This document shows, piece after piece, positions 3,317-49,405 of a stretch of 64,000 nt of DNA. Position 1 is the stretch's first letter, and each line of letters begins with the position of its first letter. The notes under the pieces are model-generated. The model was not told the DNA's origin and made no database searches. It was given only the letters and a program-made list of their open reading frames with translations. Source of the DNA: Arthrobacter sp. Soil763 (GTDB lineage Bacteria; Actinomycetota; Actinomycetes; Actinomycetales; Micrococcaceae); assembly GCF_001428365.1 (NCBI RefSeq), contig NZ_LMSH01000003.1, positions 638,477-702,476 of the forward strand, given 5' to 3'. A program made the translations under genes and the position numbers.

Positions 3317-3350
3317 CTGAGGCCCATGACCTGACGGTCATGGGCCTCAG
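3317..3350 (+). terminator. Intrinsic terminator-like hairpin after glcG
   Basis: A perfect 14-bp stem (CTGAGGCCCATGAC / GTCATGGGCCTCAG) with a 6-base loop lies 47 bases after the glcG stop. There is no clear T run, which is common in high-GC actinobacteria. Confidence 0.7.
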
Positions 3351-5475: not shown

Positions 5476-5515
5476 GGGAGGGCCCCGCCGCTGGCATCAG
5501 CGGCGGGGCCCTCCC
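5476..5515. terminator. Bidirectional terminator between pdtaR and pyk
   Basis: An 18-bp stem (GGGAGGGCCCCGCCGCTG and its complement) has a 4-base loop GCAT. It is followed by CCCCTTT on plus and by a T-rich stretch on minus (AAAAG on plus). It sits between convergent gene ends. Confidence 0.9.
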
Positions 5516-44451: not shown

Positions 44452-45813
44452 ATGACCCCTCATAACCCGGAAACCACCACGGCCGGCACCGTCCCCGCCA
44501 GCTCCCCCGGCGCAGCTGGAGCTGCCGACACCACGGCCCACATCACGGTGGAAGGCTTCGACAGCCTGGTCCCCGAGGTCATCGACCTTGATGCTCCCCG
44601 CGACGGCGTCCCGCTCGTCATCGAAACCCAGGCGGGGCTGGAGCGCTGCGCCGCGGCCCTGGCCGCCGGACACGGTCCCGCCGGCGTCGACGCCGAACGC
44701 GCGTCCGGGTTCCGCTATGGCCAGCGGGCCTTCCTGGTCCAGATCCGGCGCGAGGGAGCCGGCACCTGGCTGATCGACCCGGAACCCTTCGGGGACCTGC
44801 GCATCGTCAACGACGCACTGCGCGGCGTCGAATGGATCCTGCACGCGGCCACCCAGGACCTCCCCTGCCTCTCCGAACTGGGCATGTGGCCGGACAGGCT
44901 CTTTGACACCGAACTCGCCGCCCGCCTGGCCGGCCTGCCCCGCGTCGGCCTGGCCGCCGTCATCGAACAGCTCCTCGGCTTCGGCCTGGCCAAGGAACAC
45001 TCCGCCGCGGACTGGTCCACCCGGCCCCTGCCGGAACCCTGGCTGCGCTACGCGGCGCTCGACGTCGAGGTCCTCACCGAGCTCCGCGAAGAGCTGATCG
45101 AGATGCTCACCGCGGACGGCAAGCTCGAGTACGCCGAGCAGGAGTTCGCCGCGATCCTCGAAGCCGGCGTGGCTCCCCCGCGCGTGGACCCGTGGCGCAA
45201 AACCTCGGGGCTGCACCAGATCCGGGACCGCCGCCAGCTGGCCGCGGTCCGGGAACTATGGCTGGAGCGCGACTCGCTGGCCCAGAAGCGTGACGTCGCG
45301 CCGGGCCGGCTGATTCCCGATTCCGCCCTGGTGGCCGCCGCCAAGGCCATGCCGGGCACCGTCCCGCAGCTGCTCGGGACCAAGGGCTTCCACGGCCGGG
45401 CCGCACAGCGCGAAGCACCGCGCTGGCTGCGCTGCATCAGCGCCGCCCGCAGCCTCGAAGACCTTCCGCCGCTGCACCTGGCCACCAACGCTCCCCCGCC
45501 GCCGCGCGTCTGGGCAGACCGGGATCCGGAGGCCGCCGCCCGGCTCGCCACGGCCCGCCCCAAGCTGCAGGCACTGGCAGAGGAACTGAACCTGCCGGTC
45601 GAAAACCTGCTGACCCCGGACTACCTGCGCCGCGTGGCCTGGCGTCCGCCGGCGGAGATCAGCGAGGAAGGCATCGCCGAGGAACTGCAGAACCTGGGCG
45701 CCCGGCAGTGGCAGATCCAGCTGACCTCCCCGCTGATCGCCGACGCCTTCCTCAACCCGGCACCGCTGCCGCCCAAGGAACCCCGGGCAGCCGCGGCCGA
45801 CCCGGCTCCCTGA
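44452..45813 (+). CDS. rnd: RNase D-like 3'-5' exonuclease with HRDC domain
   Basis: A 453-residue protein. The DEDD-type exonuclease acidic residues are visible: Asp and Glu in GVDAERASGFRYG, Asp in HAATQDLPCL, and the final Tyr/Asp in RYAALDVEVL (Y-x3-D). A FDTELAARLAG segment follows the second motif. The HRDC-like helical domain lies at about residues 240-310. It probably trims tRNA or other RNA 3' ends; HRDC may help substrate binding. It is cotranscribed with the DUF3000 gene. Confidence 0.85.
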   Translation: MTPHNPETTTAGTVPASSPGAAGAADTTAHITVEGFDSLVPEVIDLDAPRDGVPLVIETQAGLERCAAALAAGHGPAGVDAERASGFRYGQRAFLVQIRREGAGTWLIDPEPFGDLRIVNDALRGVEWILHAATQDLPCLSELGMWPDRLFDTELAARLAGLPRVGLAAVIEQLLGFGLAKEHSAADWSTRPLPEPWLRYAALDVEVLTELREELIEMLTADGKLEYAEQEFAAILEAGVAPPRVDPWRKTSGLHQIRDRRQLAAVRELWLERDSLAQKRDVAPGRLIPDSALVAAAKAMPGTVPQLLGTKGFHGRAAQREAPRWLRCISAARSLEDLPPLHLATNAPPPPRVWADRDPEAAARLATARPKLQALAEELNLPVENLLTPDYLRRVAWRPPAEISEEGIAEELQNLGARQWQIQLTSPLIADAFLNPAPLPPKEPRAAAADPAP

Positions 45814-45842
45814 GCGCGCCCCGCCGCCGTTCCGAAACTCCT

Positions 45843-45876
45843 TGCCAGCTAAGTTACCCGCGGGTAACATAGCTGG
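45843..45876. promoter_or_regulatory. Promoter and 32-bp palindromic operator of fadAB
   Basis: A near-perfect 32-bp palindrome (45845-45876) has a 16-bp perfect core GTTACCCGCGGGTAAC (45853-45868), flanked by CCAGCTA on the left and TAGCTGG on the right. Only one base pair fails to match (A/A). A promoter fits inside it: TTGCCA at 45843-45848, 16 bases, then TAACAT at 45865-45870. The palindrome therefore spans the -35 to -10 region, about 80 bases before fadA. This is the expected design for a TetR- or GntR-type repressor of fatty acid oxidation. The identity of the regulator is not visible here. Confidence 0.65.
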
Positions 45877-45953
45877 AGATGCCGTCTGGATCCTCCAGTC
45901 CCGCCAAGCCCGCGGGCCCGGATCCGGCACCCTGTCTCAATGAGGAGTTACAC

Positions 45954-47243
45954 GTGAGCCAAGCCAGTCCCAGCGGGAACACCACCACCGCGCCGCCCGC
46001 CGTCGGACGGAACCGCAGCGTCCGCGACGTCGTCTTCGTCGACGGCGTGCGCACCCCGTTCGGCCGCGCCGGCGAGAAGGGCATCTACGCCGGAACCCGC
46101 GCCGATGACCTCGTGGTCAAGTGCATCCGCGAACTGATGCGCCGCAACCCGTCGCTTCCGGCGGAACGGATCGACGAGGTGGCCATCGCCGCCACCACCC
46201 AGACCGGGGACCAGGGCCTGACCATCGGCCGCACCGCCGCCCTGCTGGCCGGCCTGCCGCGCACCGTTCCCGGCTTCGCCATCGACCGGATGTGCGCCGG
46301 CGCCATGACCGCCGTGACCACCACCGCCAGCGGCATCGGCTTCGGCGCCTACGACGTCGTCATCGCCGGCGGCGTCGAACACATGGGCAACCACCCGATG
46401 GGAGCCGGCGCCGACCCGAACCCGCGCTTCATGTCCGAACGGATCGTCGACCCGGCCGCCCTGAACATGGGCAACACCGCGGAGAACCTGCACGACCGCT
46501 TCCCCGCCATCACCAAGGAACGCACCGACGCCTACGCCGTCGCCTCCCAGGACAAGCTGGCCGCCGCCTACGCCAAGGACCAGATCCAGCCGGACCTGGT
46601 TCCCGTCGCCACCATGAAGCCGGGCCAGGGCTGGACCGTGAACACCGTGGACGAACCGCCGCGCCCGGGTACCTCGGTGGAGGACCTGGCGGCGCTGCGC
46701 ACCCCGTTCCGCGCCCATGGCCGCGTCACCGCCGGCAACGCCGCCGGCCTCAACGACGGCGCCACCGCGGCCCTGCTGGCCTCCGCCGACGCCGCCGAGG
46801 AACTCGGCCTGCCGGTCAAGATGCGCCTGGTCGGCTACGCCTTCGCCGGTGTCGAGCCGGAAGTCATGGGCATCGGCCCCGTCCCGGCCACCGAGAAGGC
46901 CCTGAAAAACGCCGGGCTCGGCATCGAGGACATCGGCCTGTTCGAAATCAACGAGGCCTTCGCCGTCCAGGTCCTGAGCTTCCTTGACCACTTCGGCATC
47001 GCCGACGACGACCCGCGGGTCAACCGCTACGGCGGCGCGATCGCCGTCGGACACCCGCTGGCCTCCTCCGGCGTCCGGCTGATGAACCAGCTGGCCCGCC
47101 AGTTCGAAGAGGACCCGTCCGTCCGGTTCGGCATGACGACCATGTGCATTGGCCTGGGCATGGGCGCCACCGTCATCTGGGAAAACCCGCACCACGCCGA
47201 CTACGGCACCGACTACACCACCGAGACTGGAGCCGCAGCATGA
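45954..47243 (+). CDS. fadA: Acetyl-CoA acyltransferase (3-ketoacyl-CoA thiolase)
   Basis: A 429-residue thiolase that cleaves 3-ketoacyl-CoA in beta-oxidation. The acylated Cys114 is in IDRMCAGAMTAV. The other catalytic parts are NAAGLNDGATAALL, the His in AVGHPLASSG, and the C-terminal Cys in TTMCIGLGMGATV. GTG at 45954 is chosen for GAGGAG upstream; a longer frame to 45879 is not needed. Its stop overlaps fadB by 4 bases (ATGA). Confidence 0.95.
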   Translation: MSQASPSGNTTTAPPAVGRNRSVRDVVFVDGVRTPFGRAGEKGIYAGTRADDLVVKCIRELMRRNPSLPAERIDEVAIAATTQTGDQGLTIGRTAALLAGLPRTVPGFAIDRMCAGAMTAVTTTASGIGFGAYDVVIAGGVEHMGNHPMGAGADPNPRFMSERIVDPAALNMGNTAENLHDRFPAITKERTDAYAVASQDKLAAAYAKDQIQPDLVPVATMKPGQGWTVNTVDEPPRPGTSVEDLAALRTPFRAHGRVTAGNAAGLNDGATAALLASADAAEELGLPVKMRLVGYAFAGVEPEVMGIGPVPATEKALKNAGLGIEDIGLFEINEAFAVQVLSFLDHFGIADDDPRVNRYGGAIAVGHPLASSGVRLMNQLARQFEEDPSVRFGMTTMCIGLGMGATVIWENPHHADYGTDYTTETGAAA

Positions 47244-49405
47244 GCGCCGCCGATTTCCACAAGCTTGCCGAGCTGTTTCCCAACGAAACGGTGACGCACT
47301 CCTACGTCCAGGACATCGAACTCCCCGCCGTGAACGGCACGAGCCCGGGCACCTTCGCGCTGGTCACCCTGGACAACGGCCTGGACCACTCCAAACCCAC
47401 CACCCTGGGCCCGAACACCCTGATCGAGCTCGGCACCGTACTGGAGGGGCTGCGGGACCGCGCCGCGCGCGGCGAGATCGTCGGCGTCGGCGTGACCGGC
47501 AAGCCCTACTTCCTGGTCGCCGGCGCTGACCTGTCCACGGTCAAGTCCGTCAGCGGCCGCGAGCAGGGGCTCTGGATGGCGCAGCTTGGCCACGACGTCT
47601 ACGCCACGCTGGCGAACCTCGGCGTCCCCAGCTTCGCGTTCATCAACGGCCTGGCCCTGGGCGGCGGACTGGAAATCGCCCTGCAGTCCACCTACCGCAC
47701 GGTCTCCACCGGGGCGGGCGCCCTGGCCCTGCCCGAGGCGTTCATCGGGCTGATCCCCGGCTGGGGCGGCGTGTACATCCTGCCGCGGCTGATCGGTCCG
47801 GAAAACGCCGTCAAGGTCATGATCGAGAACCCGCTGAGCAACAACCGCACGCTGACCGGCCCGCAGGCCTATGAGCTGGGCGTGGCGGACGCGATCTTCG
47901 AACCGGCCGACTTCGTCGAGCAGTCCGTTGCCTGGGCCGCGCAGGTGATCGCCGGGACCGTAACGACCGCGCGCACCAACGCCGTCGACGCCGCCGCGCC
48001 GGAGGTTGCCGAACGCTGGGCAGCGTCCGTCGCGGCCGGCCGGGCGTTCGTGGAGGCAAAGACCTCCAACGCGTCCCCGGCTCCGGCCAAGGTGCTGGAC
48101 GTGCTGGAGGCCAACCGCACCCTGACCCAGGCCGAATCCGCGGAGCTGGAATGCCAGACGCTCGCGGACCTGATGCAGACCGACGAGTTCCGCTCCACGG
48201 TCTACGCCTTCCTGGACCTGGTGCAGCGCCGCTCCAAGCGCCCTGCCGGCGCTCCGGACCGCAAGCTCGCCCGCCCGGTGACGAAGATCGGCGTCGTCGG
48301 CGCAGGCCTGATGGCCAGCCAGCTGGCCCTGCTCTTCGCCCGGCAGCTGAAGGTGCCGGTCGTGATGACGGACATCGACCAGGCGCGGGTCGACAAGGGC
48401 GTGGACTACGTACACGCCGAGGTGGACAAGCTCCTGGCGAAGAAGCGGATCAGTCCTGACGCGGCCAACCGGACCAAGGCCCTGGTTACCGGATCGGTGT
48501 CCAAGGAAGCCTTCGCCGACGCCGACTTCGTGATCGAGGCCGTCTTCGAGGAGCTCGGGGTTAAGAAGCAGGTGTTCAAGGAGGTCGAGGCGATCGCCTC
48601 GCCCGAATGCATCCTCGCCACCAACACCTCCTCGCTCTCCGTCACGGCCATGGCGGAGGACCTGCAGTACCCCGAACGCCTGGTCGGCTTCCACTTCTTC
48701 AACCCCGTGGCCGTGATGCCGCTCCTGGAGATCGTGCGCGCACCGAAGACCGACGACGCCGTCCTGGCCACCGCGTTCGAACTGGCCAAGGGCCTGAAGA
48801 AATCCGCCGTCCTGGTCAAGGATGCCGCCGCGTTCGTGGTCAACCGGATCCTGCTGCGGCTGATGGGCGAGGTGACCGCGGCGTTCGACGAGGGCACCCC
48901 GGCCGAGGTGGCGGACAACGCGCTGCGGCCGATGGGCCTGCCGATGACGCCGTTCACCCTCGGCGCCATGGTCGGGCTGCCGGTGGCCCAGCACGTGCAG
49001 GAGTCCCTGCACGCCGCCTTCGGCGACCGCTTCACGGTTTCAGCGAACCTGCAGGCGCTGATCGACAACGGCATCAAGTCCGTCTGGGATCCGGCTTCGG
49101 TCAAGGCCGGAAAGCCGGTCATCCCGGCGGAGACCCTGGCCCTGATGAGCTTCGGGGATTCACCCTCCACCGCCGAAGAGGTGCTGCGCCGCACCCAGGA
49201 CGCCCTCGCGGAGGAGATCGGCCTGATGCTGAATGAAGGCGTCGTGGCCGGGCCGGAGGACATCGACCTCTGCATGATCCTCGGCGCGGGCTGGCCGATG
49301 TTCCTCGGCGGCATCACCCCGTACCTCGACCGGGTGGGCGCCTCCGAGCGGGTCAATGGCAAGAAGTTCCTGGCCCCGGGCGTCGCGTCCGAGCCGGCCG
49401 CCTAG
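47240..49405 (+). CDS. fadB: Multifunctional fatty acid oxidation protein (enoyl-CoA hydratase / 3-hydroxyacyl-CoA dehydrogenase)
   Basis: A 721-residue FadB/FadJ-type protein. The N-terminal crotonase domain (~1-220) shows FLVAGADLS, GLALGGGLEIAL and LPEAFIGLIPGWGG, with hydratase residues. The NAD-binding domain begins at about residue 348 with KIGVVGAGLMASQLALLFA; the usual MG after the loop is MA here. The dehydrogenase active site shows SSLSVTAMAE and GFHFFNPVAVMPLLEIV, followed by the two 3HCDH C-terminal domains. It partners with FadA as a thiolase-linked complex. It ends at a strong terminator. Confidence 0.94.
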   Translation: MSAADFHKLAELFPNETVTHSYVQDIELPAVNGTSPGTFALVTLDNGLDHSKPTTLGPNTLIELGTVLEGLRDRAARGEIVGVGVTGKPYFLVAGADLSTVKSVSGREQGLWMAQLGHDVYATLANLGVPSFAFINGLALGGGLEIALQSTYRTVSTGAGALALPEAFIGLIPGWGGVYILPRLIGPENAVKVMIENPLSNNRTLTGPQAYELGVADAIFEPADFVEQSVAWAAQVIAGTVTTARTNAVDAAAPEVAERWAASVAAGRAFVEAKTSNASPAPAKVLDVLEANRTLTQAESAELECQTLADLMQTDEFRSTVYAFLDLVQRRSKRPAGAPDRKLARPVTKIGVVGAGLMASQLALLFARQLKVPVVMTDIDQARVDKGVDYVHAEVDKLLAKKRISPDAANRTKALVTGSVSKEAFADADFVIEAVFEELGVKKQVFKEVEAIASPECILATNTSSLSVTAMAEDLQYPERLVGFHFFNPVAVMPLLEIVRAPKTDDAVLATAFELAKGLKKSAVLVKDAAAFVVNRILLRLMGEVTAAFDEGTPAEVADNALRPMGLPMTPFTLGAMVGLPVAQHVQESLHAAFGDRFTVSANLQALIDNGIKSVWDPASVKAGKPVIPAETLALMSFGDSPSTAEEVLRRTQDALAEEIGLMLNEGVVAGPEDIDLCMILGAGWPMFLGGITPYLDRVGASERVNGKKFLAPGVASEPAA

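Follow-up and report, generated by a model that had tools for sequence, protein, structure and literature searches.

A palindrome in the fadAB promoter of Arthrobacter sp. Soil763 is a probable operator of a FasR-family TetR repressor

The promoter of the fadAB β-oxidation genes in Arthrobacter sp. Soil763 contains a near-perfect palindrome. We interpret it as an operator at which a FasR-family TetR repressor would control fatty-acid breakdown (probability about 0.8, judged from comparative sequence evidence). The site is conserved, overlaps the promoter, recurs at a common set of target genes and at the gene for the regulator itself, and co-occurs with this regulator across genomes. All positions given below without a contig refer to the window, the whole 64,000-nucleotide stretch of DNA that was analyzed (Table 1).

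Table 1. Sequence features at the fadAB promoter (window coordinates)
Feature	Position	Strand	Remarks
Near-perfect 32-bp palindrome CCAGCTAAGTTACCCGCGGGTAACATAGCTGG	45845..45876	.	15/16 pairs matched
Operator core GTTACCCGCGGGTAAC, 16 bp, perfect palindrome, TTAC-N6-GTAA, proposed FasR-type box	45853..45868	.	
-35 element TTGCCA	45842..45847	+	TTG kept in 30/30 genus loci
-10 element TAACAT	45865..45870	+	Built partly from the right half of the operator
fadA, acetyl-CoA C-acyltransferase (thiolase)	45954..47243	+	GTG start preceded by AATGAGGAG
fadB, enoyl-CoA hydratase / 3-hydroxyacyl-CoA dehydrogenase	47240..49405	+	ATG overlaps the fadA stop (ATGA)
Ribonuclease D-like 3'-5' exonuclease with HRDC domain	44452..45813	+	Upstream neighbor, outside the regulon

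A preceding sequence-only reading had described the repeat as a perfect 16-bp core with 7-bp arms and one broken pair, and the letters agree: the arms are CCAGCTA and TAGCTGG, and the sole broken pair is A/A at 45852/45869. Its near-perfection over 32 bp is likewise real, as only 0.006 palindromes with 15 of 16 matched pairs are expected per 64 kb from composition alone, and none with at least 15 pairs arose in 30 simulated 64-kb sequences (first-order Markov model). The repeat ranks first among the 32-bp palindromes of the window, the runners-up having 14/16 pairs (four places). Two 32-bp inverted repeats with 14/16 pairs are found at 3318-3349 and 5480-5511. TTGCCA and TAACAT are separated by a spacer of 17 bp, a usual sigma-70-type spacing, and not by 16 bases as first read. 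The palindrome had also been thought to span the whole promoter; its overlap with the -35 and -10 elements stands and is kept in 30/30 genus loci, but TTGCCA begins 3 nt outside the 32-bp repeat. An in-frame fadA ATG at 45879 starts 8 nt downstream of the -10 element and would allow for a leaderless fadA transcript.

The earlier case for an operator depended on the core being present upstream of fadA in related species. We find it in all 30 genus loci (the own locus and 29 relatives; 30 of 46 matches), 28 of which match GTTACYNNNRRGTAAC exactly and two with one mismatch (own included). In each of these promoters the core is placed between the -35 and -10 elements, and column counts give TTG at -35 and TAAC(A/T)T in 30/30 rows each (TTG was required near -35 in each row, a requirement that excluded 0 loci). 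The arms behave differently: in the 29 congeneric promoters (own excluded) the eight pairs flanking the core match in 8, 29, 8, 22, 7, 7, 5, and 5 cases, respectively, and only two of the eight are clearly above chance. Because the outer arms are mostly not conserved, we take the operator to be the 16-bp core and the near-perfection over 32 bp to be a local extra. The unconserved outer stem also speaks against a role of the palindrome in RNA, either as terminator of the ribonuclease D-like gene or as a leader structure. A strong inverted repeat located 31 nt past the stop of that gene would suit such a role; yet there is no T run after the palindrome and no Rfam match, it is the letters, and not pairing alone, that come back in the unlinked promoters of nine gene sets (see below), and the site is also found between divergent genes, where no gene ends upstream. 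We regard an RNA element as very improbable.

On a wider scale, we scanned up to 400 nt upstream of named actinobacterial fadA loci (best 80 of 594 candidate stretches) for TTACY-N4-RGTA or TACY-N4-RGTAA, and ran a weight-matrix version of the scan as well. One or other pattern is present in 73 of these 80 loci, compared with 0 of 160 in-gene control pieces. Within this set, the records nearest to the own fadA are from Arthrobacter and Pseudarthrobacter. Site-bearing loci among the best 80 of 594 include Streptomyces, Rhodococcus, Nocardioides, and Amycolatopsis, and also Micromonospora, Geodermatophilus, Actinomadura, and an Acidimicrobiales MAG. The 7 loci of the 80 in which no fadA site was found belong to six Microbacteriaceae (two Subtercola, Agreia, Aurantimicrobium, Cryobacterium, and Klugiella) and to Knoellia (Intrasporangiaceae). 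That a palindrome fell on a promoter by chance would be in keeping with the number of perfect 16-bp palindromes, which are common enough in this GC-rich window (5, for an expectation of about 3). Allowing up to three mismatches, the core matches the window once; since shuffling gave at least one match in 21 of 100 cases, the letters of the window do not decide the matter by themselves. Against the conservation in 73 of the 80 loci and its absence from the control pieces, a chance origin is hardly credible.

Judged by its recurrence, the fadA core is one copy of a dispersed, putative operator, GTTACYSRYSRGTA(A/G)C. A genome scan for the core and its downstream genes, as the sequence-only reading had proposed, located TTACYNNNNRGTAA at 10 places in the own genome (1 for the reversed control). 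Six of these places are next to lipid or envelope genes, namely fadAB, a 4HBT thioesterase, an acyl-CoA dehydrogenase, the gap between a carboxyltransferase and a short-chain dehydrogenase, uppS/haemolysin III, and a YhgE-like gene; the remaining four look like chance. The own fadD carries GTTACTCGCCAGTAGG upstream. Among the genus genomes, 40/41 contain GTTACYSRYGAGTAAC and 2 contain the reversed control. We examined 87 loci of relatives (two places fetched twice), which form part of all matches, and all are located at nine recurring gene sets: carboxyltransferase/short-chain dehydrogenase (20), thioesterase (17), acyl-CoA dehydrogenase (17), fadAB (11, an undercount, as places taken for fadA were mostly skipped), uppS/haemolysin III (9), esterase/GDSL lipase (5), fadD (5), the YhgE-like gene (2), and a second acyl-CoA dehydrogenase (1). 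The esterase and the GDSL lipase are named from a Pfam match and have no NCBIfam match; the YhgE-like gene was named by eye and has no Pfam match. In class relatives, the site is also present next to electron-transfer-flavoprotein genes, a 4Fe-4S protein gene, and more acyl-CoA dehydrogenases. Electron-transfer flavoprotein and 4Fe-4S protein are plausible electron carriers of β-oxidation.

Several own-genome matches were set aside as chance or doubtful: some lie where a gene ends, that of a ribosomal protein (L056, by eye) or that of a DtxR-type repressor (L004/L058), others at a phosphoribosyltransferase (L064) or in the vicinity of a sugar mutase (L061) or of a gene without Pfam match (L247). 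L003/L005, with 2 mismatches, were left out of the targets as well. Upstream of the YhgE-like gene, three genus genomes contain two overlapping operator-like sites 15 bp apart (L057:1500-1530, L084:1501-1531, L151:1493-1523), and in the own genome the second of these sites has a 5-bp rather than a 6-bp center. The operator between uppS (undecaprenyl diphosphate synthase) and the haemolysin III-like gene is found in the own genome (C4:100766) and in relatives (L060, L011, L016, L022), and would link lipid-carrier synthesis to acyl-CoA status. One class genome (G094) shows 44 forward and 44 reverse operator-like matches, mostly GTTACTGGTGAGTAGC and many of them in inverted pairs 53 bp apart, which apparently represent a repeat element with operator-like ends.

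The regulator acting at the fadAB site is likely a FasR-family TetR protein. One of the 23 TetR genes in the own genome, located outside the window (G000:C2:765101-765766, minus strand), encodes a homologue of Mycobacterium tuberculosis FasR (2.7e-49 to PDB ID 6o6p), with residues 24-219 of 222 aligned and 88 of the 196 aligned residues identical (45%). The recognition helix VSKPVLYQHF is identical in the two proteins and is present in 26 of 28 class orthologues; in the remaining two it reads ISKPVLYQHF. L98, L106, and F138 are as in FasR, and F123 is replaced by Y; in the accessible text of the FasR structure paper, L98, F123, and F138 are tunnel-end or spine residues of the acyl-binding tunnel, and F123 is important for signaling (PMC7382501). 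With the NCBI model NF053731 (mycobacterial FasR equivalog) the protein scores 222.8 bits, below the cut-off of 330, and we thus refer to it as a FasR homologue rather than as mycobacterial FasR itself. A ThiF/rhodanese (MoeB-like) gene is located near the FasR homologue gene (L158:5852-7063, own C2). As moeB presumably also adjoins fasR in M. tuberculosis, this neighbor would support FasR orthology.

The gene for the FasR homologue has the site in its own promoter, with TTACCCGCGCGTAA positioned 48 nt ahead of the presumed start. Of 30 genus orthologues (own included), 25 have a strict TTAC-N6-GTAA at the regulator promoter and 5 a degenerate one, and many of the genus autoregulatory sites differ in the inner hexamer (e.g. 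TTACCCCGCAGTAA). At the class level (loci for 28 of 35 matches outside the genus), GTTAC-N6-GTA is present at the regulator gene in 10 of 28 orthologues, compared with 0 of 433 control pieces, and no site was found near the regulator start in the other 18 of the 28; at one locus (L264) the regulator and a divergently oriented acyl-CoA dehydrogenase gene flank the site.

We compared the distribution of the regulator with that of the site. At E 1e-30, the FasR homologue is found in 37/37 genus genomes including the own one (in single copy, except for two copies in G021), in 8/22 other genomes of the order, and in 37/40 class genomes (two of which are from the genus). With a threshold of E 1e-100, fadA is detected in eleven genomes of the order outside the genus. 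All six with the FasR homologue, from five families, carry the fadA site, whereas none of the five without it, also from five families and checked at fadA only, does so; the genomes in this six-versus-five comparison share ancestry. Across the class, a strict GTTACYSRYSRGTARC occurs at least once in 30 of the 37 genomes that have the homologue and in 1 of the 3 that lack it; in the other 7 of the 37 the strict site was found nowhere in the genome.

In M. tuberculosis, FasR binds three inverted repeats at fas, according to the available portion of PMC7382501, and we therefore inspected FAS-I upstream regions. We used a family (f22) that we infer to be Mycobacteriaceae and that contains the closest FasR relative available (65.6%), sampling 12 of its 13 genomes with FAS-I. 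TAC-N6-GTA is present upstream of FAS-I in 9 of these 12 genomes, with 13 matches in total, one of them inside a reading frame (0.9 are expected from base shuffles). One match, TACCCGCGGGTA, is identical to the inner 12 bp of the window's core. By its letters, the fadA core is thus met again at FAS-I genes, the known targets of FasR.

These comparisons bear on whether the site, as a genuine fatty-acid operator, is bound by another TetR or by a GntR protein, with the FasR homologue merely having a similar half-site at its own promoter. Another own TetR gene (L105) carries TACCCGCCGGTAAC upstream, a single half-matching site, and was set aside. A second candidate (L101) encodes a TetR similar to PDB ID 6el2 (2.3e-30), which we take to be Sulfolobus FadR, and adjoins an AMP-binding (acyl-CoA ligase-like) gene; it is without a site upstream, adjoins an ABC transporter, the AMP-binding enzyme, and a hydrolase, and was also set aside. 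In the own genome, branched-chain-type ABC transporter genes, an AMP-binding enzyme, a 6el2-like TetR, and an alpha/beta hydrolase are found together (L156:2458-8530, own C4). A SACE_7040-family TetR (L098) was rejected, as its upstream repeats are of another kind (GTTA-N8-TAAC) and it occurs, used as a control protein, in 2/11 order genomes, both lacking the fadA site. The two GTTA-N8-TAAC repeats lie just upstream of its gene (own C4:311083) and are perhaps its own operator. Besides the FasR homologue gene and L105, the remaining 21 own TetR genes have no such site within 150 nt upstream. The FasR homologue co-occurs with the site and has the recognition helix of FasR, and this same core is found at the fas targets of FasR, so we consider binding by another protein unlikely. 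The sequence-only reading had suggested the operator of a TetR- or GntR-type repressor responding to acyl-CoA; the TetR option is supported by a FasR-family protein, from an acyl-CoA-sensing TetR family, that tracks the site and whose gene bears it in the promoter.

DNA binding, the acyl-CoA ligand, and the direction of the effect, repression rather than activation, we infer as follows. When long-chain acyl-CoA is scarce, a regulator dimer would occupy TTAC-N6-GTAA, filling the spacer and part of the fadAB -10 element, and would block RNA polymerase at this promoter. Once fatty acids have been imported and activated, long-chain acyl-CoA would occupy the ligand tunnel of the regulator and release it from the DNA. 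This would allow transcription of fadAB along with fadD, the acyl-CoA dehydrogenases, the thioesterase, the carboxyltransferase, and the lipases, and the regulator gene would also be derepressed via the site in its own promoter. The least secure steps of this mechanism are its sign and the effect of the ligand. Alternatively, the FasR homologue could bind the fadAB site as an activator, the role that FasR is reported to play at fas-acpS in M. tuberculosis in the accessible parts of PMC7382501 and PMC8872791. In the 30 genus promoters, the core lies between the -35 and -10 elements and forms part of the latter, so that a dimer should exclude polymerase, and TetR proteins are mostly repressors, as the available text of PMC7382501 puts it. 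Activation is unlikely too. Repression by the FasR homologue seems most likely to us, because a dimer on the core would cover the spacer and part of the -10 element; the overlap of the operator with the core promoter in 30/30 genus fadA promoters resembles that of TetR-type β-oxidation repressors (FadR-like). Derepression by long-chain acyl-CoA is proposed by analogy with mycobacterial FasR, which acyl-CoA of C16 and longer displaces from DNA (PMC7382501, accessible text). The ligand could act in the opposite direction, since a Corynebacterium glutamicum protein named FasR reportedly acts as a repressor jointly with acyl-CoA.

We give even odds to a broader scenario, in which a FasR-family TetR is the ancestral, class-wide master repressor of β-oxidation in Actinomycetes, the box also came onto the FAS-I operon in Mycobacteriaceae, and some Micrococcales families lost the regulator and the fadA box together. 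If this is true, a single acyl-CoA sensor with a single DNA word would control breakdown in most lineages and, in Mycobacteriaceae, synthesis. In the accessible part of a paper on Streptomyces coelicolor fadAB, the regulatory signals and genes of fat catabolism are called undescribed in these oleaginous bacteria (PMC5539140). The candidate regulator, its proposed 16-bp operator, and the target list make this regulation directly testable in harmless lab strains; they may be of use in engineering oil producers, where β-oxidation competes for acyl-CoA, and place mycobacterial FasR in a broader evolutionary frame. In the open-licence literature, of which parts were accessible, we found no description of this fadAB-box regulon, no FasR or other TetR operator assigned to fadAB in Actinobacteria (a weak absence, given the open-licence scope), and no FasR homologue tied to a β-oxidation regulon across Actinomycetes. 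The letter strings of the core gave no match in the same open-licence literature.

An acyl-CoA-responsive TetR operator is of a known kind. Dong et al. in 2021 reportedly described FdmR, a mycobacterial TetR repressor of fatty-acid catabolism with acyl-CoA as signal. By this description, FdmR is a TetR repressor of fatty-acid breakdown like the protein proposed here, and FdmR of M. marinum could overlap with our regulator. FdmR is named in the accessible parts of PMC10501769 and PMC9301340. In Streptomyces, the nearest case in this literature, over-expression of SCO3201 lowers several fad transcripts, but in the available text its own operator is TGGCAGATTCTGCCA and no such site is reported at these genes (PMC7324645). 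Sulfolobus FadR_Sa, as far as the accessible text goes, has a 16-bp dyad operator, represses β-oxidation and lipase genes, and is released by acyl-CoA (PMC6449355). This TetR-type FadR follows the regulatory logic proposed here but represents another lineage, as the FasR homologue matches FasR with 2.7e-49 and chains labeled fatty acid metabolism regulator with about 1e-7. C. glutamicum FasR is said to repress accD1, fasA, and fasB together with acyl-CoA in the accessible portion of PMC7851686. By its description there, it is similar in being a lipid regulator with acyl-CoA effectors and with an acyl-CoA carboxylase gene among its targets; it differs in repressing synthesis genes, in a host said to lack β-oxidation. 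McGuire et al. (2012) reported a TAC-6 bp-GTA palindrome upstream of the fatty-acid synthase gene, a desaturase, and an oxidoreductase of M. tuberculosis (PMC3388012, available text). Half-sites and spacing of this motif are as in the fadA core; there, however, it is mycobacterial, arranged in clusters of 2-3 sites and without an assigned protein, whereas here we find mostly a single site, at β-oxidation genes and in many families. M. tuberculosis FasR (PDB IDs 6o6n, 6o6p) has the same recognition helix and 88/196 identical residues, and the same TAC-N6-GTA core is found upstream of FAS-I in the family taken as Mycobacteriaceae. It reportedly activates synthesis through FAS-I, whereas the sites described here lie on breakdown genes and on promoter elements, predicting repression.
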